From an uncultured Pelagibacteraceae bacterium (GTDB lineage: Bacteria > Pseudomonadota > Alphaproteobacteria > Pelagibacterales > Pelagibacteraceae): a stretch of 64,000 bases of DNA. Position numbers and translations under genes: made by a program. Below the pieces are notes generated by a model that saw only the letters and a list, made by a program, of their open reading frames with translations, was not told where the DNA came from and did not search any database. Position 1 is the first letter of the stretch; each line of letters begins with the position of its first letter. The stretch is taken from contig CACNRD010000002.1 in the NCBI GenBank assembly GCA_902622795.1, positions 1-64,000 on the forward strand, read 5' to 3'. This document shows positions 4,876 through 34,317 of the stretch, piece after piece.

Positions 4876-6192
4876 TTAATCAATATCTAAATTTACTCTA
4901 TAATCATCAATAATATTTAGATTTTTTTTATTTAAAATTTTATTAAGATAATATTTAAATACAGTGATGCCATTTGAATTTATTATTGGTATTGAAAAAG
5001 CACTCCTCAGATTGTTTAAATAAATCATATTTTCTAAAAAAAATCTTCCATTAATTATGATGGTACCAATACCCCATTCAAATTTTAAGATTGTGCTCAA
5101 GGCCTCACTATTAATAATAATTCTTTTATGACATTTTTCAATTACCTTCAATCCAAAATAAAAATCGTAATAAACATATGTGTCTATATCCTTTATATAA
5201 ATATTAATAGATTGAAAACCTTTCTTAAATAATTTTTGGTACAAAAAAATTATAAACATAAATAAATTACCATTTATTTTTTTTATTTTTTTTACTTGTA
5301 ACTTAGACAGATTTATTAATTCATTAATATTAACTTTTGTTGGGATATGCTTTATCGAAATTTGTGAAAAGTCATTCTCATATTTTTCTATAGACTCTAC
5401 ATTTTTTCTCAAATTATAATCCCAATCATCATTTGGATACAAGATGATGGGAGAAGTTGATAAAAAATTTTTATTTATCATTTTTTCTACTAAAGATATT
5501 TTTGGTATTTCATCATTCATAAAAAAATTTTCCTTATTTGAGAAATATATGTAGCTTGCAAATGGAACAATATATTTAGGTTTGAAAAAATTTATTTGGT
5601 CTTTAATTTGTTGAAATTTTTTTTTAATTGCATTTTTTCTAAGATAACCCTCCGCAGAATTACCATTCCAATCAGCATAACTAAACTGTGTAAATAATAC
5701 ATCAATATTAATATCATTGATGATATTTTTAATTTTGTATAACTCATTTTGTGGAACACAATCATTCATATTTACAATCAAGTGATTACTATCTTTTATA
5801 ATGGCAAAAGAATCTAACAAACCACATTTTATTATTTGAATATATGAATTTTTATCAAAGAAATATTTTTGAAAATTTTTTACTTCTACAACAGTAAAGC
5901 CTAAATTTTTACAAAAATTAATAACTCTTTTATCAAGTGTTTCTTGAAATAAAATTTTAATATCTTTATTTAAACTGTATATGTATTTCAAATCTTTTAC
6001 TGAAAAATGATCTGGATGTTCGTGTGAAAACCATATATGAGTAATTTCCTTCAATTCCTTATCTTCAACCTTTGTTTTACTTATTAAATCCCATCCATTG
6101 TTAAAAGAAGATCCAGAAAACCATGGATCAATAAGAAGATTAAAATTTTTATTTTTCACTATAAAGCTGGCGTGATTAATAAATTTAATCAT
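4876..6192 (-). CDS. Metallo-beta-lactamase-fold protein resembling the CMAH non-Rieske domain
   Basis: A 438-residue MBL-fold protein. Metal motif HEHPDH is at residues 57-62, with IDPWFSG (21-27) in front, NMNDC (about 141-145) in the middle and KPKYIVPFASY later. The order and wording of these blocks match the UlaG-like/MBL part of vertebrate-type CMP-N-acetylneuraminate hydroxylase (DPWLTGPAF..GW, SHMHSDH, NTVDC, CPFAGYF). No N-terminal Rieske [2Fe-2S] domain is present, so oxygenase chemistry by this protein alone is unlikely. It begins five bases after the WbpG-like gene and is the last gene of a four-gene operon. It may hydrolyse or rearrange a modified nucleotide sugar; substrate unknown. 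The C-terminal 150 residues have no function I recognise. Confidence 0.7.
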   Translation of the reverse strand: MIKFINHASFIVKNKNFNLLIDPWFSGSSFNNGWDLISKTKVEDKELKEITHIWFSHEHPDHFSVKDLKYIYSLNKDIKILFQETLDKRVINFCKNLGFTVVEVKNFQKYFFDKNSYIQIIKCGLLDSFAIIKDSNHLIVNMNDCVPQNELYKIKNIINDINIDVLFTQFSYADWNGNSAEGYLRKNAIKKKFQQIKDQINFFKPKYIVPFASYIYFSNKENFFMNDEIPKISLVEKMINKNFLSTSPIILYPNDDWDYNLRKNVESIEKYENDFSQISIKHIPTKVNINELINLSKLQVKKIKKINGNLFMFIIFLYQKLFKKGFQSINIYIKDIDTYVYYDFYFGLKVIEKCHKRIIINSEALSTILKFEWGIGTIIINGRFFLENMIYLNNLRSAFSIPIINSNGITVFKYYLNKILNKKNLNIIDDYRVNLDID

Positions 6193-6197
6193 TTTAT

Positions 6198-7328
6198 TTA
6201 CCCAAATAATTTTTTTATTTTTTTTAAATTAATATAAATTTTATGTAGTGAATTCCATAATTCTCTCTCTGAACCATAAAAACTGTGACTAACTTCTTTT
6301 TCGAATAAATAATTTTCTAATTCTTTTTCGCTCCATTTCATTTTTTTTAAAAAATATTCTTTATCTTTTTTCTCATCCTCTAAATTTTCATAAACCGGTT
6401 TTTGCATAATTCTCAATGCTTCATTTTTATCCATTTGATTTGAAATAATTAAATTGCTTAAGTGAAGTTTTCTTTTATCTACTCCAAATTTTTTTGGTAA
6501 TATATATCCTTGGTAAAATCTTGTAAAAACATTATCATAATGTTTGTAGGGATATTTTTTAAAATTCGACTTTTCTTCTAACTCTTTAACGGCTTCATCT
6601 TTTTTATAATTAAAATAATCAGGGAATAATATCCATTTAATTTTTTTTACTATTTCATAGTAAATGAAATCAAATGTTCCAAAAAGTGGAAATGTTTTTA
6701 TTTTTTGATTTGAAAATTTTTTAGTTATTTTTTTTATATTTCTTGCATCATTTTTGAACCATACCCAATCATCTGGAATTTTAAATCCTTCCGTGGAAGT
6801 ATTCATTCCAGATAAAATATATTTTATATTAAATTTATTTGCTAATTTATAATTTACTGCTGCCATTGCATTATCATATAAAAGTTCAATATCAATTACA
6901 TTGGCTTTTAAAAAAGCTTCTTGCAAATTTTTATACTCCTCCCAATTAATAACATGGGTATGTAAGTCCACATTAAGAGATCTTATCAGGTTTGATATAT
7001 TGTTTTGAGCTAGCTCGCTATTCCATCCATTATCCATATGAACTGCTAATGGTCTTAGACCACATTCGACAGCCCTAATTAATGCAAAACAGCTATCTAC
7101 ACCACCGGAAACACCTACTATGCAGTCATATTTTTTATTTTTTCCGTCAGATTTAATTTCAGAAATTAATTTATCTAAATCTGATACTGTTTTTTCTGTA
7201 TTCTTTTGTCTAACTATAAAATCTGTACAAAAATTACAAAAACCATTTTCATTAAACACTATTTTACTTGTTGTTGTATCCATTAAGCATCTATTACAAG
7301 ACTGATACTTAAAATAACTTTTATTCAT
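6198..7328 (-). CDS. wbpG: N-acetyl sugar amidotransferase (WbpG/PseA family)
   Basis: A 376-residue ATP-dependent PP-loop enzyme. Two CxxC pairs (C11/C14 and C31/C34) form a probable zinc site, and the pyrophosphatase loop SGGVDS is at residues 74-79. A central domain continues to GTFDFIYYEIVKKIKW. The family converts the N-acetyl group of a nucleotide sugar to an acetamidino group: WbpG in ManNAc3NAmA-type sugars, PseA in acetamidino-pseudaminic acid. Ammonia is supplied by a HisH/HisF-like pair, and those two genes lie immediately upstream with a 4-base gap. The CMAH-like MBL gene follows. Family assignment is firm; the sugar acted on is unknown. Confidence 0.9.
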   Translation of the reverse strand: MNKSYFKYQSCNRCLMDTTTSKIVFNENGFCNFCTDFIVRQKNTEKTVSDLDKLISEIKSDGKNKKYDCIVGVSGGVDSCFALIRAVECGLRPLAVHMDNGWNSELAQNNISNLIRSLNVDLHTHVINWEEYKNLQEAFLKANVIDIELLYDNAMAAVNYKLANKFNIKYILSGMNTSTEGFKIPDDWVWFKNDARNIKKITKKFSNQKIKTFPLFGTFDFIYYEIVKKIKWILFPDYFNYKKDEAVKELEEKSNFKKYPYKHYDNVFTRFYQGYILPKKFGVDKRKLHLSNLIISNQMDKNEALRIMQKPVYENLEDEKKDKEYFLKKMKWSEKELENYLFEKEVSHSFYGSERELWNSLHKIYINLKKIKKLFG

Positions 7329-7332
7329 AAAT

Positions 7333-8079
7333 TTATTCTTCCTTATCAGTAATATATGAAATTAAAACAGCTTTATGAGGCCCATAATATATAAAATAAG
7401 CACCAATTCCAACGGCGTCTATTTTTGAAAAATTTAAACACTCGCTTATATTCTTTTTAGAATTAATTCCTCCATTAATAATTAAAGGAATTGGGATTTC
7501 AAAATCTATAAAGTCTACTAATCTTTTATTAAATCCACATAATGTTCCCTCATTAAATACAAAATTAATTAATAATTCTCCAGCTCCATATTTAATACAT
7601 TGTTGTATATGCTCTTTAATACTGAGCTTGATATTTTTTTTTTTGATCCAATCATACAAGTAAAGTTTATTAAAAATATTTTTGTTTAAATCAACTGCAG
7701 CAATAACACTTTGAGAGCCAAATTTATTTGTTATTTCTTTCATAAGATTTAAATTTTTATAGTTAATTGAGTTTAAAGTTATTTTTTCAATACCTATGGA
7801 AAATAATTTTTCAGCTTGTTCAATACTTTTAATACCACCACCATAAGTTAAAGGCATATAGCATTCACTTGCTAAATCTTGAATTAACTCGTAATTAGGA
7901 TCTTTGTTAGAAATGGACTTTTCTATGTCTAAAATTATTATTTCATCAACTTGTTTTTCATTAAAAATTTTAATAACATTAATAGGATCACCAACATAAC
8001 TATGGTTTTTATATCTAGTAGACTTGACTAGTTCATCACCTTTAATAAGAAGCGTTGGAATTATTCTTTTTTTTAACAC
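7333..8079 (-). CDS. hisF: HisF-like ammonia-channel subunit of the sugar amidotransferase system
   Basis: A 248-residue (beta/alpha)8 barrel homologous to imidazole glycerol-phosphate synthase cyclase HisF. It opens with KKRIIPTLLIKGDELVK and has YVGDPINVIKIF, LDIEKS, TYGGGIKS and INGGINSKKN phosphate-binding blocks. The first-strand catalytic aspartate of true HisF (the D of PCLDV) is replaced by leucine (residue 11). The second catalytic aspartate position appears kept in AAVDLNK. This fits the accessory HisF group that pairs with HisH and a WbpG/PseA amidotransferase in surface-sugar loci rather than histidine synthesis. It overlaps hisH by 7 bases. Confidence 0.85.
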   Translation of the reverse strand: MLKKRIIPTLLIKGDELVKSTRYKNHSYVGDPINVIKIFNEKQVDEIIILDIEKSISNKDPNYELIQDLASECYMPLTYGGGIKSIEQAEKLFSIGIEKITLNSINYKNLNLMKEITNKFGSQSVIAAVDLNKNIFNKLYLYDWIKKKNIKLSIKEHIQQCIKYGAGELLINFVFNEGTLCGFNKRLVDFIDFEIPIPLIINGGINSKKNISECLNFSKIDAVGIGAYFIYYGPHKAVLISYITDKEE

Positions 8080-8681
8080 AAGTCTATAAAATTTTTTAAT
8101 ATTTTTTGACCTTGAAAAAAACTTTTTTCTGGATGGAACTGAACCCCATAAATATTTTTATAATTAATGCATGCTGGAAAAGAAACACCATGCTCTGTCT
8201 CACTTAATATAACATTTTTCTCAACATTAGCTGCATGATAAGAATGTGCAAAATAAAATTTCGTTTTTGGTAAATTACTTAATAAACTTTTTGAATTTAA
8301 AATTTTTAAATTGTTCCATCCCATATGTGGAACTTTAAATTCTTTTCTTACATCAAATTTAATCAAATTTCCTTTTATGATATCAAGTCCTTCCTCAATA
8401 CCTTCTTCACTGCTTTTAAAAAAACTTTGCATTCCAACACAAATACCTAGTATTTTATATTTATCTATTAAAACTAATTTTTTGATTTGATCATATAATT
8501 CAGCTTTCCTTAAGGAGTTTATAAATGAGTCGAAGCTACCTACACCTGGTAATATAATTTTTTTATACTTATGATTTATCTCAGATGGCTTTTGAATAAT
8601 AGTTGGCTCAACACCGATTGCATTTAAAGCATTTTTGACAGAACCAATATTACCTATCCCACATTTTATTAGATTTAACAT
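8073..8681 (-). CDS. hisH: HisH-like glutaminase for the sugar amidotransferase system
   Basis: A 202-residue class I glutamine amidotransferase. The nucleophile elbow LGICVGMQ places Cys at residue 81, and the other triad members are in GVQFHPEKS (His183, Glu185). The oxyanion-strand motif LPGVGSFDS is at about 44-52. It should release ammonia from glutamine and pass it through the HisF-like barrel. In this setting the acceptor is expected to be the WbpG/PseA-type enzyme. First gene of the leftward operon hisH-hisF-wbpG-MBL. Its promoter should lie in the 55-base divergent spacer shared with the gene at 8737. Confidence 0.85.
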   Translation of the reverse strand: MLNLIKCGIGNIGSVKNALNAIGVEPTIIQKPSEINHKYKKIILPGVGSFDSFINSLRKAELYDQIKKLVLIDKYKILGICVGMQSFFKSSEEGIEEGLDIIKGNLIKFDVRKEFKVPHMGWNNLKILNSKSLLSNLPKTKFYFAHSYHAANVEKNVILSETEHGVSFPACINYKNIYGVQFHPEKSFFQGQKILKNFIDLC

Positions 8682-8736: not shown

Positions 8737-10335
8737 ATGAACAGAATTATTCAAATTTATAAAAATAATTTATATCTATTTTGGATACTTTTTCTAGGAG
8801 CTTTTTTAAGAGCATATTATCTAATAAGAAAATCGGGCGATCTATTTATTCCAAATTTAGGTGGCGATCCATGCTATCATTACAATGTTGCCTACAATAT
8901 TGCAAATGGCATAGGACCAAAAACGAGTTTTATTTTTTCTTATTGGTTTTACCATCCCGAAATCCCAGCTTATGTTGATTTATACGGACCTGGTTATGCA
9001 CTTTTTTTAAGCTGCTTTTTATTTATTAATGATAATTTTTTCAATTTAAGAATAGCTAATTTCACTATTGGAATTCTATCAATACTAATTGCTTATTTTA
9101 TAGGAAAAAAAATTCATTCTAAGACTCTCGGATTATTAAGTGCTTTTTTTATATCAATAAATTTTTTCCATATCGAAAATTCAACAGTTGTTATGAGAGA
9201 AATATTCACTTTACTTTTAACCCAGTTGTTTTTTTTATTATTAATTTATTTAGATAAAAGAAAATTATTATTTTTTTTAATAGGCTTAATAGTTGGATAT
9301 ATATCAATTACTTCAGGAGTCTGGCCAATATATATTTTAATTTTAATTTTATATTTAATTATTAAAAAAAATAAATTTTCATTTACATATATTTTCTCTT
9401 TTTTATTTGGTTTCATAATTACAAGTGGTTATTGGATTATTATAACAAAGAAATATTTTGGAAAATTTTATTACTCAAATTTAGATTATTATCCATATGT
9501 ATCTGGATGGAGTAAAATGATGGTAGATAGGGGATTACCGCAAATTGATAATTTTTGGAGCTCAATTAATTTACATGAATACTTATTAAACCATTTTAAT
9601 TGGTTAATACAAAATATTTATAAGGGTAGTTTAGTATTATCACCTACTTTTGTATTTTTTCTTTTTTTTCTATTAATTCCATTCTGTATATTTGGGGCAT
9701 ATAAATTAAAAAAAATTGGATTTATTTTAATATTTTTTTCAATAATCTATTTTTTTGGTCTTTCTTTTGCATCATATGGATTAGGTGGCAATCTTTGGCC
9801 AAGGCATTTCTTACCATTGCAAGCAGCAATCTCATTGCTACTTGCTTCTGGTATCATTCCAATTATAAGTTTTGTTAATAAAAAAAAAGAAAATTTTATA
9901 AATAATAAAATAACATTTTCATTAATTTTTATAGCTGCCTTAATAACGGTAACTGGAATTGAATACAAAACCTCATACTGGGAAAAAGATGATAGCCATT
10001 TTTACAAATTTGGAAAAAAAATCCAGGAAAAAACAAATAAAAATAGTGTTATTATGTATTCAGTGGCTGTTCCTGATGTTTGGTGTGCAACGGGTAGAAA
10101 AGTCGTACATGATATTGCGCGAGATGGACATAATACAAGGAATAGATTAAATCAAGAGATAGAGAAATATAAAGCTTCACATATTTTTATAGATATTTCA
10201 GGTGAAAATTACGATTACTCATCTCAAAAAATAGAAAATGTTTTATTAAATTACAAAAATACTGATTTAAAAAAAATCTTAGAAAATAAAGAAAAAGGCT
10301 ATTTTTTTTATAAAATTTTGAAAAATATTGAGTGA
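8737..10335 (+). CDS. GT-C glycosyltransferase, GT39/ArnT-like membrane protein
   Basis: A 532-residue protein with a GT39/PMT_2-like plan. An N-terminal membrane segment is followed by a periplasmic loop with an acidic site (GGDPCYHYN, residues about 43-51) and VDLYGPGYALFLSC. About ten further hydrophobic segments and a soluble C-terminal domain of about 130 residues come next. Such enzymes use polyprenyl-phosphate-linked sugars to decorate lipids, glycans or proteins at the outer face of the inner membrane. DPM-like GT2 enzymes that could make the donor are encoded at 13405, 24016 and 32300. The start follows a 55-base divergent spacer. Substrate unknown. Confidence 0.65.
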   Translation: MNRIIQIYKNNLYLFWILFLGAFLRAYYLIRKSGDLFIPNLGGDPCYHYNVAYNIANGIGPKTSFIFSYWFYHPEIPAYVDLYGPGYALFLSCFLFINDNFFNLRIANFTIGILSILIAYFIGKKIHSKTLGLLSAFFISINFFHIENSTVVMREIFTLLLTQLFFLLLIYLDKRKLLFFLIGLIVGYISITSGVWPIYILILILYLIIKKNKFSFTYIFSFLFGFIITSGYWIIITKKYFGKFYYSNLDYYPYVSGWSKMMVDRGLPQIDNFWSSINLHEYLLNHFNWLIQNIYKGSLVLSPTFVFFLFFLLIPFCIFGAYKLKKIGFILIFFSIIYFFGLSFASYGLGGNLWPRHFLPLQAAISLLLASGIIPIISFVNKKKENFINNKITFSLIFIAALITVTGIEYKTSYWEKDDSHFYKFGKKIQEKTNKNSVIMYSVAVPDVWCATGRKVVHDIARDGHNTRNRLNQEIEKYKASHIFIDISGENYDYSSQKIENVLLNYKNTDLKKILENKEKGYFFYKILKNIE

Positions 10336-10336
10336 T

Positions 10337-11845
10337 ATGGAAATTATAAAGAGTTTTATATTTTTTTTTTATAATTCTTTTTTTGATAATAATCCTAAAA
10401 ACGATTTTTATATTGATCAATTAATCAAAAATTTAGATTATTTACTTTTAATTTCAATTAATAATTTAATTATAGTTGTAGTTTTTATTGTTGTAATAAT
10501 CTTACTTTTCTACTTTAATTTAAAAAGGCAAAAAGCATATTATTTAATTTTATTTATTAATATATTTGTATTTTATTTAATAATATTAATTTTTCCATTA
10601 AACATACCTTTTACAGATACTTACAACGAACTAAATTTATTATTTTCAAACAATATTAAAAACTATCTGTTCGATGTTAAATATTCAGAAGGTTTTCTTT
10701 TTTTTCTTTTCAGACTTTTACATGTTTTAGTATATAAATTTTTTGATTTAAATTATTATATAATTATAAATATTAACTTTTTATTTTTTGTATTTTCTAT
10801 TTTTTTAATAATAAAATATTTAGAAAAATTAAATTTAAGAAATTATATAATTTTTTTTATTTTAATATATTTTAATGGCAAGTGGTTTGTTCATTTTTAT
10901 GAACCTGTAAACATTGTCTGGACGTTTAATTTTTTTATAATAGTATTATTTATTTATATCCAACAAATAAAAAACATTTATATAAAAAAAATCTCTTTAA
11001 TTTTTTTACTTATATGCTCTATTTTAAATTTTAAAGCTGGTATAGTTTTGTTTATTTACTCAATTATATATGGAGTTATATGTAAAGATAACTTGAGGAA
11101 TAGATTATTTTATATAATTTCTCCCATAATTTTATTTTATCTAATAAATAATTTTTTAATAGTTAATTCAATTGATGAATTAAAAGATGTCAGTTCTCTT
11201 AATATTGCTTTAGAAAAACATTTTTTCAACATAAATTATTTTACATTAATTTTTAACTTTATTGCATTACATGCTTTAGTTTTTACTCCATTTATTTTTC
11301 CACTCAAATATTTAGCAATAACTTCTGTAATAGCTCAATATATTTTTATAATAAAAAAAATTTTTTCAAAAACCCATAAAAATTTAGATAATATTAGAAA
11401 TTTTTTAATAATAAATCCATATATAGTAATTGGTGTTTTGGGATGTTTGTTAATTAGCTTCGTAAGAGAGGATTATAATCAGTCTAGATATTTAACATTC
11501 CCACTTTTATTCCAATTGGGATTTTTTATATTCATAATCAAGAACAATTTTTTTAACAAATTAAAAAACTTTATTATAAAAAAAATTATAATCTTAATAT
11601 TTATCTTTTTATATTTATTGAATTTGTTTATTCCACATCAAGGAATATCATTTGCTCTTGGAAAAAATTATATCTACAAGACTGTTATGGAATGCTTAAA
11701 GCAGAATGAAAATAATAATGTTTGTTTACCTGAAATGTTTTATTTAACATTTTATGACTTTAAAAAAGAACATTATAAAAATTTCGAAAATAGTATTTAT
11801 ATATTGAAAGAAAAGAAACTTAGCATTTTCAATAAATCAAAATAA
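10337..11845 (+). CDS. Polytopic membrane protein, possible GT-C glycosyltransferase
   Basis: A 502-residue hydrophobic protein with about ten or more membrane segments and an early periplasmic loop containing an acidic motif (PFTDTYNELNLL). A loop with an acidic residue after the first membrane segments is a GT-C trait, but no diagnostic motif is present and I do not recognise the family. The ATG at 10337 lies just after the stop of the previous gene; a TTG at 10328 in the same frame would overlap it by 8 bases and is less likely. Probably cotranscribed with the GT39-like gene. Confidence 0.55.
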   Translation: MEIIKSFIFFFYNSFFDNNPKNDFYIDQLIKNLDYLLLISINNLIIVVVFIVVIILLFYFNLKRQKAYYLILFINIFVFYLIILIFPLNIPFTDTYNELNLLFSNNIKNYLFDVKYSEGFLFFLFRLLHVLVYKFFDLNYYIIININFLFFVFSIFLIIKYLEKLNLRNYIIFFILIYFNGKWFVHFYEPVNIVWTFNFFIIVLFIYIQQIKNIYIKKISLIFLLICSILNFKAGIVLFIYSIIYGVICKDNLRNRLFYIISPIILFYLINNFLIVNSIDELKDVSSLNIALEKHFFNINYFTLIFNFIALHALVFTPFIFPLKYLAITSVIAQYIFIIKKIFSKTHKNLDNIRNFLIINPYIVIGVLGCLLISFVREDYNQSRYLTFPLLFQLGFFIFIIKNNFFNKLKNFIIKKIIILIFIFLYLLNLFIPHQGISFALGKNYIYKTVMECLKQNENNNVCLPEMFYLTFYDFKKEHYKNFENSIYILKEKKLSIFNKSK

Positions 11846-11888
11846 ATAGAAATATTGCCTAGTTTTGAAATTAATATTTAATGAGATC

Positions 11889-12470
11889 TCACTTTTTTGA
11901 TTTTAAATATTTCTTATATTTATTATAAATTTTCTTAATTTCTGTGTGATCCTTCATGAAATTTTTTTTTTTTGAACTTGCGTAATAAATTCCCTTTTTT
12001 AGCCTACCAAAAATAACACTGTAAGGTGATACTGAAACAAATTCTTCAATATTTGAATTTGGTAATATTATAGAAAACGGTCCTATTATAGAAAATTTCC
12101 CGATCTTTACATTTCCTCCATATGATTTTGAGAATTTATCTCTTTCTTTTTGATTTAATGTTCCACCAGTTAATGCTGGTGCTTTATAATCATCAGAAAT
12201 ACTAAATACTTGAACATAATTTGATAAACTTACAAAATCTTGAATATCTATTAAATATAAATTTCCTGACAATGTGCATCCACGAGCTAAATGAATATTG
12301 TTTTTAAGATTTATGTTACCCTTCAATACAACGTCCTCATCAATTCTATTGTTTGAACCTATATTTCCTTTAAAGTTATAAGTCTTAAGAGATTTACTAA
12401 TTTTATTGTTCTTTCCTATTTTTAAAAAACCTTTTTTCCTTAATTGATAATTGTTAAGATACTGTTTCAC
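11889..12470 (-). CDS. Left-handed beta-helix acyltransferase
   Basis: A 193-residue hexapeptide-repeat protein (GNIGSNNRIDEDVVLKGNI, VKIGKFSIIGPFSIILP). The middle YVQVFSISDDYKAPALTGGT and the tail GRLKKGIYYASSKKKNF resemble LbH acyltransferases of polysaccharide loci. It probably acetylates a sugar or repeating unit in the cytoplasm. The start is GTG at 12470 (the reverse-strand codon after the 9-base gap from the epimerase gene). It is the last gene of the operon 16675 to 11889. The product resembles surface-glycan acetyltransferases more than serine acetyltransferase or LpxA. Substrate unknown. Confidence 0.7.
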   Translation of the reverse strand: MKQYLNNYQLRKKGFLKIGKNNKISKSLKTYNFKGNIGSNNRIDEDVVLKGNINLKNNIHLARGCTLSGNLYLIDIQDFVSLSNYVQVFSISDDYKAPALTGGTLNQKERDKFSKSYGGNVKIGKFSIIGPFSIILPNSNIEEFVSVSPYSVIFGRLKKGIYYASSKKKNFMKDHTEIKKIYNKYKKYLKSKK

Positions 12471-12479
12471 TTTAATTTA

Positions 12480-13415
12480 TTATACATTTAATTTTAAAAT
12501 TTTATTTAATCCATTATTTAAAGTAAATTTTGTTTTAAATCCTAGCATCTTTATTTTCTTAATATTCGGAACCCTTATTTTTGTTCCACCCTCTTTCAAA
12601 GGTGACTTTCTAATTATAATTTTTTTGTTAATTATTTTCGCTATTTTTTTTGCAAGTTCTTTAATTTTTATTTTTTCATTAGTTCCAATATTATAAATGT
12701 TTAGATGTTTCCCTTTATGTAAAATTAAGTCAAATGCATTAATAAAGTCTTCAATATAAATAAAAGATCTTATTTCATTTCCACTACCTTGAATTTTAAA
12801 ATTTTTGTTTTTAATAGATTTTATCTTTTTTATAAATTCTGGAATTACATGTTCATTACCCATATTTGGTCCATAAACATTATGTGGTCTAAAAATTATT
12901 AGTTTTTTAAAAAATTTTTTTCCATAATTAATTCCCATAAGCTCAGTTAGTATTTTCCCACCTCCATAAGAGTATCTTGGGTTATATATGTCAGGAATTT
13001 TTAGCATTTCATTTTCATCTGTAGGGATTTTTAATGGTGTTTGATAAACCTCTGAACTTGATGCAAGATATAACTCTTTAATTTTATATTTCTTGCATCC
13101 ATCGAAAACATTTATCAACCCTTTTATAGCTACATCTAATATAACATCTGGCTTTTCATAGAAGTATCTTGTTCCATTTATGTAAGCCAAGTGTATAACA
13201 GCATCAACTTTTTTTAGACATTTATATAATAATTTTTTTTCTCTAATATCACCTTTTATATATTTAATGTTTTTATTGATTGTTTTGTTGAATACTCCTC
13301 TAGAACCGTCATCTAAAACTAAAATTTTGTAATTCTTTTTCAATAAAAGATTAACAATATTTCTTCCTATAAATCCAGTGCCACCTGTTACCAAAAAGGT
13401 TTTTTTATTTTTCAT
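12480..13415 (-). CDS. NAD-dependent sugar epimerase/dehydratase (extended SDR)
   Basis: A 311-residue extended short-chain dehydrogenase. Its nucleotide-binding motif is VTGGTGFIGRN (residues about 9-19), LASSSEV holds the catalytic Ser, and YSYGGGK holds the Tyr-x3-Lys pair. FRPHNVYGPNMGNEHVIPEF forms the substrate wall, and a GNEIRSFIYIEDF block follows. It would act on a nucleotide sugar (epimerisation, dehydration or reduction). It overlaps the upstream GT2 gene by 11 bases. The operon also holds an aminotransferase and a sugar dehydrogenase, so an amino sugar or uronic acid is a plausible substrate. Exact reaction cannot be read from the sequence. Confidence 0.8.
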   Translation of the reverse strand: MKNKKTFLVTGGTGFIGRNIVNLLLKKNYKILVLDDGSRGVFNKTINKNIKYIKGDIREKKLLYKCLKKVDAVIHLAYINGTRYFYEKPDVILDVAIKGLINVFDGCKKYKIKELYLASSSEVYQTPLKIPTDENEMLKIPDIYNPRYSYGGGKILTELMGINYGKKFFKKLIIFRPHNVYGPNMGNEHVIPEFIKKIKSIKNKNFKIQGSGNEIRSFIYIEDFINAFDLILHKGKHLNIYNIGTNEKIKIKELAKKIAKIINKKIIIRKSPLKEGGTKIRVPNIKKIKMLGFKTKFTLNNGLNKILKLNV

Positions 13416-14130: not shown

Positions 14131-15225
14131 TTAAGAATAGAAAGAGTTTATAAGATTACATACTTTTTTTTGATCCGCTATACTCATATTAAGTGAGGAG
14201 GGTAACCACATTAATTTTTTCTGAAGTTTTTTTGACTCTTTTAAACCGCTGAAAGATTTTAAATAGGGATACGTTACATTTAAAGGTTTCCAGTAATATC
14301 TGCAAACAACATTTCTACCTTTTAGAAATTTGTAAAGTTTGTCTCTATTTGCACACCATACATCAGTCCACAGTGGAGTTTCCCCGTTCTTAATTTCAAA
14401 TTTTATTATTTTGAAATATTTGTTTTGATTTATATTTTTTAAATAATAATTGTGGATTTGATTTAACTTTTTTTTTCTCCATTCAATATTTTTAATTTGA
14501 GATAAACCTAAAGATGCTTGTAAATTCGTAAATTTAAAATTATACCCATTTGAAACATATTTGTCTTCACCACCTGTTGTCGGCCCAACTCTTCCCTGAT
14601 CTTTTAATATTTTAAGTTTTTTATAAATATTCTTATTATTTGTAACAACAGCTCCACCTTGACCAGTTGTTATGATTTTATTTGGAGCAAAAGAAAAACA
14701 ACCAGCTATACCAAAAGAACCAAGATTTTTATTATTTATTTTAGATCCAAATGCTTCAGCTGCATCTTCGATAACCTTTATTGAATTTTTTTTACACAAT
14801 TTGATAATTTTTTTTATATTACTTCCTCTCCCAGATACATGGACAGGTATCAAAAACTTTGTTTTTTTAGTAATTTTTTTTTTTAAAGAGTTTTCATTAA
14901 TTAATATATTTACCGGATCTACATCTACCAAAACTGGATTACCACCCGCCATTTTAATTGCATTTGCCGTTGCAGGAAAAGTAATATTTGGAACTAAAAC
15001 ATCATCGTTTTCTTTTATGCCTGCAGCCTTTAAAGCTAAGAATAGAGCCGTTGTTCCACTAGTTGTAGTTACTGCGTATTTTATTTTTAAAAACTTACAA
15101 ATTTTATTTTCAAATTGTTTTGTTTGTTTTCCTTCATTAATAAAATTACTATTTAAAACACTATTTAAATTTTTTTTTGTTTCTTTTAAATCAATAATAG
15201 GATTTGATAATATGATTTCACTCAT
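14131..15225 (-). CDS. DegT/DnrJ/EryC1 PLP-dependent sugar aminotransferase
   Basis: A 364-residue sugar aminotransferase. TTSGTTALFLALKAAGI is the phosphate-binding region (residues about 53-69), VIEDAAEAFGS the PLP-ring aspartate segment, and SFAPNKIITTGQGGAVVT holds the Schiff-base lysine. It transfers an amino group from glutamate to a keto nucleotide sugar, giving the amine that a beta-helix acetyltransferase (for example that at 1152) could acetylate. It overlaps the formyltransferase remnant by 4 bases. Relatives include WbpE, PerA and VioA types; the position aminated is unknown. Confidence 0.88.
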   Translation of the reverse strand: MSEIILSNPIIDLKETKKNLNSVLNSNFINEGKQTKQFENKICKFLKIKYAVTTTSGTTALFLALKAAGIKENDDVLVPNITFPATANAIKMAGGNPVLVDVDPVNILINENSLKKKITKKTKFLIPVHVSGRGSNIKKIIKLCKKNSIKVIEDAAEAFGSKINNKNLGSFGIAGCFSFAPNKIITTGQGGAVVTNNKNIYKKLKILKDQGRVGPTTGGEDKYVSNGYNFKFTNLQASLGLSQIKNIEWRKKKLNQIHNYYLKNINQNKYFKIIKFEIKNGETPLWTDVWCANRDKLYKFLKGRNVVCRYYWKPLNVTYPYLKSFSGLKESKKLQKKLMWLPSSLNMSIADQKKVCNLINSFYS

Positions 15226-15497
15226 TTCGTTGATTTTAAAAATCTAGTTTCATTTAAATATTTTTTGCTAACTAAAAAATACGACTTTGACCCTAAATCT
15301 TTCATTGATTGAGGAAATGATTCATTTATCATCGGTCTTATAAAGTTATATATTTTATCCCATTTCCACTTGATTTTCCCATTATTTGGAAAATGTTTTT
15401 TCTTATATTTGGTATTAATTTTTTTTGGAAATTTGTAATTAAGTGTTTCATAACCTAGATTTCTACCACCAATAAATATAAAATCTAATTTCTTCAT
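15222..15497 (-). pseudogene. Internally deleted formyltransferase-like remnant
   Basis: A 91-residue frame starts with KLDFIFIGGRNLGYETL, matching the first strand and helix of methionyl-tRNA/sugar N-formyltransferases. It then jumps at about residue 21-30 to sequence typical of the end of that domain (YKKKHFPNNGKIKWKW, IYNFIRPMINESFPQS). The roughly 100-150 residues in between, which hold the folate site and the catalytic Asn-His-Asp, are missing. The deletion kept the frame. The start (ATG at 15497, ATGA overlap with the upstream dehydrogenase gene) and the 4-base overlap with the aminotransferase gene are intact. Most likely a dead sugar N-formyltransferase gene left in an active operon. 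Confidence 0.7.
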
Positions 15498-16675
15498 TTT
15501 TTTACAATATTCCAAATATCTATATATTTTTTATCTTTTGGGAACTTAATTTTTTTATATTTTTTGTGAGGAGCACCGATTATGATTACATCTGATTTGT
15601 TTAAAAAAGTTTTAATTTCATAAGTTTTTCTATCTGAGTAATATTCATCTGTGTAAATAACTTTTAATTTAATTCTCATAAGTTTTTTAATTATTTTTAT
15701 TGATAAAGAGTCTCTCGTATCATCTGTTTCTGCTTTAAACGCTACACCCATTAATCCTATTGTTTTTGTTTTATAATTTTTTATATCTTTTACTTTCTTT
15801 ATAATTAGATCGACAATATTCCTTTCATTAATTTTCATCGCGGCCAGACCTAGTTCAAAATTACCTCGATAAAAAGATCTAAGTTGCATGGTATCTTTTA
15901 ATAAACATGGGCCTGCTGAAAACCCAGCAGAGGGTAGATTTATATTTCTTTCGTAGCCTATTTGCATTAAATTTCTTACTCTTTCAAAGCTCACATTCTG
16001 TTTTTCACACAATAGGTACAATTGATTAGCAATTGCAAAATTAATATATCTATTTGCATTAGAATATAATTTAATTATTTCTGCTTCTTTTATTGTAGAT
16101 ATCATAATCTTTTTAGTTATTTTTTTAAAAAGATTTACAGAGTCACTTATTGCTTTATCAGATGTTCCAGAAATTATTTGGGGTAAAATTGGGAGTTCAA
16201 TTAAAGCTTTGCTTTGTACAATTCTTTCTGGACAATAGGAAATATTATTATTCTGACTTTTGAATTTTTTTGCAATTTTTTCTATAATGCCCGGAAATAC
16301 TGAACTTCTTATAATTATAGTATGATTTTTATTTATGTATTTAAATAATTTATAAAAAAAATTATAAAATACTTTCGTTTTAGGTTGCATCTTAGAGTTA
16401 ATGGGAGTTCCAATGCAGATAATAACGTACTTGCTTAGTTTTATAGATTCTAAAGTATTTGAGAAGAAAAGTTTTTTACTTTTTAAAGATTTCTTTAATA
16501 TTTTTTCTGCCCCAAGTTCATAAAATGGTGTAATTCCTTTTTTAATTTTATTTAAATTTTTTTGGTTTAAATCAATTATATTAACGTTATAGTTTTTATT
16601 CGCGAATGCTAAGGCTAAAGGAAAACCAACATGGCCTGCTCCTCCAATTATAGATAAAGTTCTGTTAAAACTCAT
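15494..16675 (-). CDS. UDP-glucose/GDP-mannose dehydrogenase family nucleotide-sugar dehydrogenase
   Basis: A 393-residue NAD-dependent four-electron dehydrogenase. N-terminal Rossmann motif is IIGGAGHVGFPLALAFA, and the proline-rich TPINS segment follows at about residue 92. The catalytic cysteine is in SAGPCLLKDT, and LMGVAFKAETDDTRDS is the C-terminal domain signature. It oxidises a nucleotide hexose or HexNAc at C6 to the uronic acid (WbpA/WecC/Ugd-like). First gene of the leftward operon; the 192-base spacer upstream should hold its promoter. With the aminotransferase it suggests an aminouronic acid of the ManNAc3NAcA type, although a WbpB-type 3-dehydrogenase is not seen in the window. 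Confidence 0.85.
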   Translation of the reverse strand: MSFNRTLSIIGGAGHVGFPLALAFANKNYNVNIIDLNQKNLNKIKKGITPFYELGAEKILKKSLKSKKLFFSNTLESIKLSKYVIICIGTPINSKMQPKTKVFYNFFYKLFKYINKNHTIIIRSSVFPGIIEKIAKKFKSQNNNISYCPERIVQSKALIELPILPQIISGTSDKAISDSVNLFKKITKKIMISTIKEAEIIKLYSNANRYINFAIANQLYLLCEKQNVSFERVRNLMQIGYERNINLPSAGFSAGPCLLKDTMQLRSFYRGNFELGLAAMKINERNIVDLIIKKVKDIKNYKTKTIGLMGVAFKAETDDTRDSLSIKIIKKLMRIKLKVIYTDEYYSDRKTYEIKTFLNKSDVIIIGAPHKKYKKIKFPKDKKYIDIWNIVKK

Positions 16676-24779: not shown

Positions 24780-26384
24780 ATGATTTGCGAAAATATAATA
24801 ATTGGCTCTGGACCAACATCAGCTACAATTGCTGATAAACTTTTAAAACTTAATAAAAAAGTAACAATTATTGATATTGGAAATACTATAGAAAAAAAAA
24901 ATTTAGAAATTAAAAATGAGTATCTTCATACAAAAAATAAAAAAGAATTTTTAAATTCTATAAGAAAAAATAAAATCTTAAATAAATATAAAAACCCACA
25001 TCTTAAATTTCCTTTTGGGTCAGAATTTGTTTTTCAAAAAAATAATTATGAAAATTTTTTTGGACCTAAAAATTTAGATTATATTCTTTCAAATGCATAT
25101 GGAGGATTATCTAATATTTGGGGAACAATGGTATCTCCCTTTTTTCATAAAGATATCGAAAATTGGGACATTGGATTTAAAGATTTTTATAAAAGTAAAT
25201 CAGATACAGAAAATATTATTCCCATATCAAGTAGCAAGGATAATTTGGAAGATTTTTTTGGAATAAATTTTGGTAAAGATCACAAATTTAAACTATCAAA
25301 CCCTGCAAAAACTTTTTTTGAAAATATGACTAAAAAAAAAGATTTTTTAAACAATAATGGTTTATTTTTTGGAAGAAGCAAGGTTGCCGTAGGAAATTAT
25401 TATTCAAACAATAATGTGGAATGTCAAGAGTGTGGATTATGTCATTATGGTTGCCCCTATGACTGTATGTTTAATTCATCACAATTGTTTGATATTATTA
25501 AATCAAATAAAAACTTCTTGTACTTAAACAATAAATTTGCGAGTAAAATTATTAAAAAAGATTCACTCAATTTAGTTGAGTGCATAGACACAATAACAAA
25601 AGAACAAACAATTTTTTCTTCAAAAAATATATTTATCTGTTGTGGACCTATATCAACTGCAGCTTTACTATTTAGAAGTAATTTAGTTAAGGCTAATAAA
25701 GTAACATTCAAAGAGTCACAAAGATTTTTCTTACCAATTTTTAATAAAAATCATATTAAAAATAGCACATCACAAGACAAAAACGTTCTATCAGAACTTT
25801 ACTTAGAAATTTACGATAAAAAGTTATTATCTAAAAGTGTTCATTTACAATATTATTCATTTGTTGATATTTTTTTAAAACCTTTAGAAAAATTTTTTGG
25901 AAAATATGTTTATCTATTTCCAAAATTTTTCCCTTTTATATTTGGAAGAGTAAATCTATTAATTGGTTATTTACACTCTGATTATTCTAACAAAATAATT
26001 ATGACTTCATTGCCCAATCAAGAGTCTGGAAAATATCAGTATTCATTATCTTTTGAGAAAAATGAATTAGTTAATGATGCAGTAAATAAAATCACTTCAC
26101 ATCTTAAAGAAAATCTTAAAGAAGATTTTTATATATTTAATAATTTAACCAATATAAATTTAACAGGCGCCAGTTATCATTATGGCTCAAGTTTTCCAAT
26201 GAGTAATTCTTCCGACTCTTTCAAAGATCACACAAATTTAGATGGAGAATTAAATAATAACGAAAATATTTATTTATTAGACGCTTCTATATTGCCAGAT
26301 ATGCCAGGTCATCCCACAACTTTTAATGTTTGTGTTAATGCTGCAAGAATCATTAATGATCTAAACGAAAAAGGAAAAATTTGA
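24780..26384 (+). CDS. GMC-type FAD oxidoreductase with ferredoxin-like cysteine motif
   Basis: A 534-residue flavoprotein. The N-terminal FAD-binding motif is IIIGSGPTSATIADKL, a YGGLSNIWGTMVSPF block follows, and the C-terminal signature is DASILPDMPGHPTTFNVCVNAARI, as in GMC oxidoreductases. At residues 215-229 there is Cys-x2-Cys-x2-Cys-x3-Cys-Pro plus a further Cys, the spacing of a [4Fe-4S] site. It probably oxidises a sugar or alcohol group on a glycan precursor. A cytoplasmic location is likely because no signal peptide is seen. It overlaps the following SDR gene by 4 bases (TTG start there), so the pair is translationally coupled. Confidence 0.75.
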   Translation: MICENIIIGSGPTSATIADKLLKLNKKVTIIDIGNTIEKKNLEIKNEYLHTKNKKEFLNSIRKNKILNKYKNPHLKFPFGSEFVFQKNNYENFFGPKNLDYILSNAYGGLSNIWGTMVSPFFHKDIENWDIGFKDFYKSKSDTENIIPISSSKDNLEDFFGINFGKDHKFKLSNPAKTFFENMTKKKDFLNNNGLFFGRSKVAVGNYYSNNNVECQECGLCHYGCPYDCMFNSSQLFDIIKSNKNFLYLNNKFASKIIKKDSLNLVECIDTITKEQTIFSSKNIFICCGPISTAALLFRSNLVKANKVTFKESQRFFLPIFNKNHIKNSTSQDKNVLSELYLEIYDKKLLSKSVHLQYYSFVDIFLKPLEKFFGKYVYLFPKFFPFIFGRVNLLIGYLHSDYSNKIIMTSLPNQESGKYQYSLSFEKNELVNDAVNKITSHLKENLKEDFYIFNNLTNINLTGASYHYGSSFPMSNSSDSFKDHTNLDGELNNNENIYLLDASILPDMPGHPTTFNVCVNAARIINDLNEKGKI

Positions 26385-27250
26385 TTAAAAATATTTTATT
26401 AGTTGGTCATAAATCCTTTTTAGGTAAAAAAATTAAAGAGTTAGGACAAAAAAATAATTATTTAAACATGTTCTTTTTAGAGAGTTATTTTAATGAAGAT
26501 GATATTTATTCATTGAGTAAAAAAAATTTTTATGAAAAATATTTTTCAAAATATCCAAAAATAGATGTAATTATTTCTTGTCTTCACATACACAAAGACA
26601 AATTTAAAGATGAACTTTTACTCAATACTAAAGTTTATGAAAATATGCTATTCTTTGCAAAAATACAAAATATTAATAAATTTATTTATTTATCCTCTAT
26701 AAATGCTTCTGAAAATGAGTCTCTCTCTTATGCACATGTAAAATATAGGGTCGAATGTTTATTTAATAATTTTAATAATTTTATTATTGTTAGACCGTCA
26801 ACAATTATTTCAATAGACTCTCAAAAAAATCTCAGTGGTGGAAGAGATGGAAACAGCTTTAGTTTGTTTGAAAAAATTTTTAATTACAATCTACCTATTC
26901 CAATAATAGGAGATGGGAAGTACTTATTTACTTATTGTTTTATAGAAGATATTACAAATTTTATATTTTTATTAGTGAAAGAAGATATTTTATTAAACAA
27001 GAAGGTAAATTTTTTTTCTGGAGAGTTGATGAATTTTAATACTTTTATTGATTATATCGGCAAGATAAAAAATAAAAACTTGTTTAAAATACATTTGCCA
27101 CTTTTTTTTATTAACCTTTTGTGTAAATTTAAAATATTTAATAAAAAAAATATTGATAATTTGCTTAATCAAGAAATTTACTATAATTACAATAATTTAA
27201 TTAAAGAAAAAATTAAGATTAATCAATTATCGTCATTAATAAAGAGATAA
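26381..27250 (+). CDS. NAD-dependent sugar reductase/epimerase (SDR)
   Basis: A 289-residue extended SDR with an atypical nucleotide-binding start (ILLVGHKSFLGKKIKEL). The catalytic segments are FIYLSSINASENES and YAHVKYRVECLF (Tyr-x3-Lys), and VRPSTII and GDGKYLFTYCFIEDI follow. The start is TTG at 26381, overlapping the stop of the GMC gene; no ATG fits better. Its stop overlaps the start of the WecB-type gene by one base. The pairing with the oxidoreductase suggests the two act in sequence on one sugar (oxidation then stereospecific reduction), which is inference. Confidence 0.7.
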   Translation: MIKNILLVGHKSFLGKKIKELGQKNNYLNMFFLESYFNEDDIYSLSKKNFYEKYFSKYPKIDVIISCLHIHKDKFKDELLLNTKVYENMLFFAKIQNINKFIYLSSINASENESLSYAHVKYRVECLFNNFNNFIIVRPSTIISIDSQKNLSGGRDGNSFSLFEKIFNYNLPIPIIGDGKYLFTYCFIEDITNFIFLLVKEDILLNKKVNFFSGELMNFNTFIDYIGKIKNKNLFKIHLPLFFINLLCKFKIFNKKNIDNLLNQEIYYNYNNLIKEKIKINQLSSLIKR

Positions 27251-28332
27251 TGAAAATTGTAACAATTGTTGGAACAAGACCAGAGTTTATAAGACTTTCT
27301 AGAATATTACCATTGTTAGATAAATATTCAGATCACACAATTATTCATACTGGTCAAAATTATGATTACAACTTAGATAAAATTTTTTTTAAAAATTTCA
27401 AAATAAGAAAACCTGATTATTTCTTAAATGCTAAAAAAAGTTTTGGGAATCAAGTATCTATTATATTTAAGAAATTAGAAAAAATATTAATAGATTTAGA
27501 GCCAGATCGGTTTTTAGTATTAGGGGATACTAATAGTAGTTTAGGGGCAATTATTGCAAAAAGATTAGGTATTCCTGTTTTTCACATGGAGGCAGGAAAC
27601 AGACAGTACAATGATATAGTGCCTGAAGAGGTAAATAGAAGATTAATAGATCATTCAAGTGATGTATTGTTGCCATATACTCAAAGAAGTTGTGAAAATT
27701 TGATTAGAGAAGGTATAGAGCGTAAAAGAATTTATGTAACTGGAAATCCTATTTTTGAGGTAATGAAATTTTATGAAAAAGAGATAAATTCATCAAAAAT
27801 TTTAAAAAAACTTAAAGTTTCTAAGGAAAACTTTTTTCTTCTTACCTCCCATCGTCAAGAAAATGTTGATAATTATATAAAATTAAAATCAATAATTGAA
27901 TTATTAAACGAACTAATTTCTATTAAAAAAATTCCAATCATATGGCCAATACACCCAAGATCCAAAATAAGAATTAAAAAAATGAAATTAAAATTAAATA
28001 AAAATATAAAATTAATTTCCCCTGTAAATTTTTTTGATTTTTCATATTTGGAAATTAATTGTTATTGTATAATCACAGATAGCGGTACAGTTCAGGAAGA
28101 GGCTTCAATTTTAAAAAAACCTAATTTAATTATTAGAGACACTACTGAAAGGCCAGAAACAATAGAAGCTGGATCTTCAATTCTTGTAGGTAGTTCAAAA
28201 AAAAATATAAAAAAACAAATCAAAATCGCTACAGAGTTAAGTGGATCAGAAGAAGATGTCAGAGAGTATATTACTCCAAATGTATCTAAAAAAATAATCA
28301 AAATTCTATTTTCAAAATATGATTTTGACTAA
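27250..28332 (+). CDS. wecB: UDP-HexNAc 2-epimerase, WecB/FnlC/WbpI group
   Basis: A 360-residue non-hydrolysing UDP-N-acetylhexosamine 2-epimerase. VGTRPEFIRLSRILPLLD is at the N terminus, then HTGQNYDYNLDKIFF, LVLGDTNSSLGAIIAKR, FHMEAGNRQYNDIVPEEVNRR, LTSHRQENVD and a C-terminal ITDSGTVQEEAS. The MEAGNR and RKPDYFL wording looks closer to FnlC/WbpI-type members (FucNAc or diacetamido-uronic acid pathways) than to classical WecB (MEAGLR). With a sugar dehydrogenase, aminotransferase and acetyltransferase in the island, a ManNAc3NAcA-like or FucNAc-like sugar is plausible. Confidence 0.88.
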   Translation: MKIVTIVGTRPEFIRLSRILPLLDKYSDHTIIHTGQNYDYNLDKIFFKNFKIRKPDYFLNAKKSFGNQVSIIFKKLEKILIDLEPDRFLVLGDTNSSLGAIIAKRLGIPVFHMEAGNRQYNDIVPEEVNRRLIDHSSDVLLPYTQRSCENLIREGIERKRIYVTGNPIFEVMKFYEKEINSSKILKKLKVSKENFFLLTSHRQENVDNYIKLKSIIELLNELISIKKIPIIWPIHPRSKIRIKKMKLKLNKNIKLISPVNFFDFSYLEINCYCIITDSGTVQEEASILKKPNLIIRDTTERPETIEAGSSILVGSSKKNIKKQIKIATELSGSEEDVREYITPNVSKKIIKILFSKYDFD

Positions 28333-33946: not shown

Positions 33947-34062
33947 TGCCGGTGATTATTGCGAAGGTGTTACACCCGATCCCTTTCCGAACTCGGAAGT
34001 TAAGCCCTTAAGCGCCAATGGTACTTTGTCTTAAGACATGGAAGAGTAGGACATCGCCGGCT
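33947..34062 (+). rRNA. rrf: 5S ribosomal RNA
   Basis: About 116 bases. The two ends pair as helix I: the 5' GCCGGTGAT with the 3' ATCGCCGGC (nine pairs including one G-T). Between them are the conserved 5S landmarks ACACCCGATCCC, CCGAACTCGGAAGTTAAG and the GAAGAGTAGG region. No 16S or 23S gene adjoins it; a GalE-like gene ends 58 bases upstream. In SAR11 the 5S gene is known to be separated from 16S-23S by hypervariable region 2, which fits. The rpmJ gene follows after 13 bases. Confidence 0.95.
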
Positions 34063-34201: not shown

Positions 34202-34206
34202 TTTTT

Positions 34207-34317
34207 GTGGATAATAAAAACCATAAGAATACTTGGAATAATTTTACAAAGTTTGTGTTGTGGGGAACGGTAGCAGTTATTAGTGTTTTAGTTTTAATGG
34301 CAATATTCTTACTATAA
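34207..34317 (+). CDS. aa3-type cytochrome c oxidase subunit IV-like small membrane protein
   Basis: A 36-residue protein with GTG start at 34207: a short polar N terminus (MDNKNHKNTWNNFTKF) and one membrane helix (VLWGTVAVISVLVLMAIFLL). This matches the tiny alphaproteobacterial aa3 oxidase subunit IV family (Pfam COX4_pro_2). In several alphaproteobacteria that gene sits next to pntA, as it does here with a 9-base gap. The length is near the family's lower limit (about 40-70). It would bind the terminal oxidase in the inner membrane; the other oxidase genes are not in this window. Confidence 0.75.
   Translation: MDNKNHKNTWNNFTKFVLWGTVAVISVLVLMAIFLL

Follow-up and report, generated by a model that had tools for sequence, protein, structure and literature searches.

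A metallo-β-lactamase-fold protein with a likely SCP2-like domain beside a predicted acetamidino-sugar cassette in a SAR11-type O-chain cluster

We analysed a 64,000-nucleotide stretch of an uncultured Pelagibacteraceae genome (GenBank assembly GCA_902622795.1, contig CACNRD010000002.1, positions 1 to 64,000; the whole stretch is called the window here). The open reading frame (ORF) map shows four minus-strand ORFs at 4876-8681, which form a complete operon, HisH2-HisF2-WbuX(WbpG)-MBL, the last gene encoding a protein of metallo-β-lactamase (MBL) fold.

8073-8681, minus strand: HisH2-type class I glutaminase subunit, 202 aa (TIGR01855 200 bits, PF00117 2.3e-20; GICVG and HPE motifs)
7333-8079, minus strand: HisF2/AglZ-type barrel, 248 aa, GTG start (NF038364 292 bits)
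6198-7328, minus strand: WbuX/WbpG-type N-acetyl sugar amidotransferase, 376 aa (TIGR03573; PP-loop and zinc tetracysteine)
4876-6192, minus strand: MBL-fold protein of an uncharacterised family of the CMAH-like MBL superfamily, 438 aa (PF13483)

HisH2 and HisF2 overlap by 7 bases, and gaps of 4 and 5 bases separate HisF2 from WbuX and WbuX from the MBL gene. The initial annotation had described this tight arrangement of HisH-like, HisF-like and WbpG-type genes with an MBL gene five bases on, and had taken the first three for an acetamidino-sugar module. The ORFs and the family models bear out the former, and the family models together with the intact motifs bear out the latter.

The HisH2 protein scores above the cut-off of TIGR01855, and both of its motifs are intact. 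The best model for HisF2 is NF038364 (AglZ/HisF2, acetamidino modification), although the score falls slightly short of the cut-off of 310 bits; TIGR03572 (WbuZ) gives 241 bits and the model for true HisF 152 bits. WbuX reaches 270.3 bits with TIGR03573 (cut-off 203.2 bits), and its catalytic motifs, the PP-loop SGGVDS and the cysteine motifs CNRC and CNFC, are intact; a tetracysteine and a PP-loop have been described for LpNASAT (PMC10607449). Since family models confirm each gene and the catalytic motifs are intact, the trio is, to judge from sequence, the standard and already known acetamidino-sugar module. The same three genes as in the described HisH2/HisF2/WbpG module (WbuXYZ; AglZ/HisF2) lie adjacent to one another, whereas the MBL gene that follows them here has no counterpart in that module. 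HisH2 would act as the glutaminase that makes ammonia, the HisF2 barrel would pass the ammonia to WbuX, and WbuX, a PP-loop enzyme using ATP, would convert an O-chain sugar's N-acetyl group to acetamidino.

The MBL gene product matches PF13483 with 30 bits (cut-off 24), and the predicted structure of the full protein has a predicted local distance difference test score (pLDDT) of 92.6.

5404-6192, minus strand: MBL domain, residues 1-263 (Foldseek, VIA-align)
6007-6024, minus strand: HEHPDH metal motif, residues 57-62 (family alignment)
4876-5403, minus strand: likely SCP2-like domain, residues about 264-430 (separate model, fold matches)

For the MBL domain, Foldseek ranks CmlA first (7.5e-12), and VIA-align places UlaG, NAPE-PLD, CmlA and TM_1162 level at Z 20-21. 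The C-terminal 40% of the protein is a separate domain, with a pLDDT of 91.1 when modelled alone. Its matches, at Z 6-9, are nearly all of SCP2 type: UbiJ, SCP2 (sterol carrier proteins) and, by their C-terminal domains, Eis and alkylsulfatases. Because this match list is uniform, though the single Z values are modest, the modelled region is likely an SCP2-like domain, which would suggest an apolar ligand. This domain is an addition to the initial annotation, which had missed it.

In an alignment of 62 family members, 26 columns are invariant, including H7, D22, HEHPDHF, D127, S128, N141, N143, D144, Q169, P210, A212, S213 and N226. The blocks IDPWFSG, HEHPDH, NMNDC and IVPFASY, on which a likeness to CMP-sialic acid hydroxylase (CMAH) had been proposed, are present in the protein, and the 62 relatives keep the key residues of these blocks. 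The invariance of HxHxDH, D144 and a ring of polar residues in so diverse a set points to retained catalysis. None of the 62 members has a conserved histidine at the motif-3 and motif-5 places, where side-by-side alignment shows histidines in UPF0173 hydrolases (FHSS/THSS and HYD, respectively). The same two histidines are also gone in a CMAH-type protein (locus L017) and in other stand-alone relatives.

Closeness to CMAH was measured against that one reference, a bacterial protein of 590 aa (8207-9979 in L017, from an alphaproteobacterium) in which a Rieske domain is followed by an MBL domain; a search of 398 other genomes from the phylum turned up no more Rieske-bearing CMAH relatives. As of 2016, no CMAH structure had been reported (PMC4819959). 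With hhalign, the MBL family aligns to L017 at 8e-20, confined to the MBL part, and no C-terminal match between the family and the CMAH-type protein was detected. The stand-alone relatives L016 (1.5e-25), L018 (1.6e-21) and L023 (1e-21) outscore it and another reaches 2.5e-19, so that by this single bacterial reference the protein is no closer to CMAH than to stand-alone MBL proteins. Both the protein and L017 carry the blocks DPW..G..F..GW, H.HPDH, D-S, a D at motif 4 and P-F/Y-A. In contrast to L017, the window's protein lacks a Rieske domain: PF00355 is unmatched and the MBL domain begins at residue 1-2, in agreement with the initial annotation. The CMAH-type similarity proposed there is real; its specificity was put too strongly, since several stand-alone relatives score as well or better. 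By sequence comparison, the protein appears CMAH-like at the superfamily level only, the superfamily being broad and CMAH one of its branches.

Alignment to hydrolases gives weaker scores. A UPF0173 hydrolase, taken from another genome as the first genomes searched had none, gives a weak 3e-7, and E. coli UlaG gives 0.029, no detectable relationship; the best alignment is thus not to generic UlaG lactonases. UPF0173 and UlaG have the MBL fold and HxHxDH in common with the family. Of the PDB sequences, the family profile best matches two diiron monooxygenases, FrsH (9.5e-8) and CmlA (4e-5); hydrolases rank behind them. With these diiron β-hydroxylases, which are also represented at the top of the Foldseek matches, the protein shares the MBL fold and the loss of the hydrolase-type third histidine, whose place in CmlA is taken by Glu377. 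It differs in having no CmlA N-terminal domain and in carrying the SCP2-like domain instead.

Single-sequence scans of genome and viral contigs gave no relative, and the relatives came from a profile search, which found at least 80 loci in genomes of many bacterial and archaeal groups; statistics on loci refer to the matches listed. One member lies on an IMG/VR contig classed as viral (L104, 1550-2911), possibly a mobile element or a piece of host DNA. Of 297 genomes from the same order, 86 have WbuX and 11 a member of the MBL family. The two co-occur in 2 of the 297, against a chance expectation of about 3 (Fisher p 0.52); they are linked in 1, the window's own; in the other genome they lie on different contigs. 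In other species, 4 of the 80 listed loci (L044, L060, L079 and L092) have WbuX no more than 10 kb from the MBL gene, and WbuX occurs anywhere in the genome in 19 of the 49 genomes searched. The linked MBL proteins, the window's included, are spread over five separate positions in the tree and group no better than shuffled labels do. Because the WbuX-MBL linkage is rare and scattered, the four-gene unit is not conserved. The initial claim of a four-gene module thus fails on these counts, and the neighbours elsewhere are indeed largely unrelated to sugar amidotransferases. What stands is an MBL family that is real, widespread, uncharacterised and worth testing; the case for a module is weak. 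Full-text literature searches returned no paper on WbuX-MBL pairing or on the MBL family.

Two of the linked loci have the MBL gene among acetamidino genes. In L044 (Rhizobium sp. Q54), HisH2 and HisF2 are followed by two short ORFs and then by MBL and WbuX; in L079, HisF2 and HisH2 flank the MBL gene, which is on the opposite strand. A TylF methyltransferase shared with the Rhizobium locus had been suspected from short fragments and had no tblastn match. A further candidate, L097, suggested by HisH/HisF hits, was rejected as a linked locus: its HisH, two HisF/HisA-like ORFs and the short ORFs that follow look like an ordinary histidine operon.

The neighbourhoods of the other relatives are varied. 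The closest SAR11 relatives have Gfo/Idh oxidoreductase and DegT aminotransferase genes nearby, as have ten loci in all, and methyltransferases, epimerases and glycosyltransferases accompany other members. In L013 and L014 (genomes G227 and G123) the MBL relative stands between a GlmS-like gene (SIS and GATase domains) and the gene for ribose 5-phosphate isomerase A (rpiA), with a GlmU-like gene nearby. In three Pelagibacteraceae loci (L068, L072 and L077, at about 8960-12500) its immediate neighbours are GAPDH on one side and, on the other, a 393-aa ORF, probably phosphoglycerate kinase, a reading taken from the position of the ORF, as no Pfam match was obtained at the threshold used. This GAPDH-side location is odd for a glycan-modifying enzyme. 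In three Massilia loci (L098, L099 and L101) a gene with a flavin reductase domain precedes the MBL gene by 15-24 bases, and its product is a possible electron donor to the MBL protein. Rieske-like motifs were sought in the ORFs near 84 MBL loci, with one convincing case only, 4 kb away from the MBL gene in L015.

We tentatively read the MBL protein as an accessory metalloenzyme that modifies glycans or lipids, in all probability as an oxygenase dependent on O2, and that stands beside a standard acetamidino cassette as a result of cluster reshuffling, and we give this reading a probability of about 0.42. The oxygenase part is based on the sequence relationship to FrsH and CmlA and on the altered metal site that the family has in common with the CMAH type. 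It is based additionally on the flavin reductase upstream in the three Massilia genomes and on the organism names, as we know of no strict anaerobe among the matches listed. The Gfo/Idh and DegT genes near the SAR11 relatives and in the ten loci are a further lead. The MBL protein would then be a separate accessory enzyme and not a fixed partner of amidination. Its MBL domain would hold iron and carry out CmlA- or CMAH-like chemistry with O2 on an amino sugar or a lipid-linked glycan intermediate, while the SCP2-like domain would grip the apolar part of the substrate. The gene could have reached its place beside wbpG by shuffling within the O-chain cluster (see below). Every step from the MBL fold to a reaction is one that we infer. 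Should the reading be correct, ocean microbes of great abundance may owe to this family an unrecognised modification of their surface glycans or lipids. Being Rieske-free, the family could also offer a simple model for the function of the CMAH-type MBL domain.

Several observations weigh against an accessory oxygenase of this kind. The sequence match to CmlA and FrsH spans only the first ~170 residues, and the fold comparison, with its four-way tie, cannot split oxygenases from hydrolases. The aerobic pattern is an impression from the names of the matches listed. No electron-transfer partner was recognised in the window's operon. Finally, the MBL gene touches or sits among acetamidino genes in three loci (the window, L044 and L079), which is evidence for a functional tie; we take it as weak because both gene types favour glycan clusters.

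The tied fold matches leave room for a hydrolase, whether deacylase, phosphodiesterase or lactonase, which would act through an altered and perhaps mononuclear metal site on a lipid-linked or nucleotide sugar, with the SCP2-like domain guiding the apolar substrate. UlaG and NAPE-PLD match the structure as well as CmlA does, and an MBL domain followed by an SCP2-like domain recalls the type III alkylsulfatases SdsA1, SdsAP and Pisa1, even though the C-terminal likeness to these is at fold level only and their MBL part belongs to a different branch. On the other hand, the loss of the motif-3 and motif-5 histidines, which UPF0173 hydrolases keep, is invariant, the sequence profile favours the diiron monooxygenases, and UlaG shows no detectable profile relationship. 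A hydrolase is thus possible but doubtful, and the hydrolase or lactonase function suggested initially is weakened by the missing histidines and by the best PDB sequence matches.

It is improbable that the protein is a dedicated fourth enzyme of the acetamidino pathway, modifying or editing the same sugar as WbuX. The tight operon in the window and the arrangements in L044 and L079 speak for such a role, as do the Gfo/Idh and DegT genes at near relatives and several other loci, a pair of the type that makes 3-amino sugars. Yet co-occurrence with WbuX in the order is at chance level, linkage is found in one genome there and in few loci elsewhere, the linked proteins are dispersed over the tree, and relatives reside between gapdh and the presumed pgk or beside glmS-like and rpiA genes.

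We consider it quite improbable that, as a more specific form of oxygenase, the protein is a Rieske-free CMAH-like enzyme that hydroxylates the N-acyl group (N-acetyl or acetimidoyl) or the ring of an amino sugar, with the SCP2-like domain holding the lipid carrier of the substrate; if it did so, the product would be a new type of bacterial surface sugar. Least probable is a passenger or non-enzymatic lipid- or glycan-binding protein with a degenerate metal site, for which the loss of two canonical ligands and the very mixed gene contexts could be cited, but which is at odds with the invariance of HxHxDH, D144 and the polar ring.

The source genome is ~1.0 Mb, and its nearest named relatives among the matches listed are Pelagibacteraceae. 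In Pelagibacterales, the O-chain biosynthesis cluster adjoins the rRNA genes, has a G+C content below that of the genome and is nearly wholly replaced from strain to strain, with <5% orthologues in common for 75.7% of cluster pairs (PMC11898729). The operon sits in this hypervariable cluster of a SAR11-type genome, because the 5S rRNA gene, the pntA RNA motif and the low G+C content match the cluster position described there. G+C is ~21-26% from 1 to ~32 kb and mostly 28-31% past ~36 kb.

14131-15225, minus strand: DegT-family sugar aminotransferase, LegC/PseC-like (PF01041 309 bits; TIGR04181 256 bits, below cut-off)
15494-16675, minus strand: nucleotide-sugar dehydrogenase (TIGR03026 264 bits, over cut-off)
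27250-28332, plus strand: UDP-GlcNAc 2-epimerase, WecB type (TIGR00236 293 bits, over cut-off)
33948-34062, plus strand: 5S rRNA gene, one end of the O-chain biosynthesis cluster (Rfam RF00001 91 bits)
34203-34264: pntA RNA motif, just past the 5S rRNA gene (Rfam)

Family models identify further sugar genes in the cluster, namely SDR enzymes, a WecA-like transferase and a Wzy/O-antigen ligase domain. A Gfo/Idh oxidoreductase akin to those of the neighbour loci was not found in the window, and the genome has two elsewhere; a WbpB-type step is therefore not seen in the cluster. The sugar amidinated by the trio cannot be named from the cluster's other sugar genes. Also within the cluster, window positions 24780-26384 encode a GMC-oxidoreductase-like protein of 534 aa, identified by a weak match.

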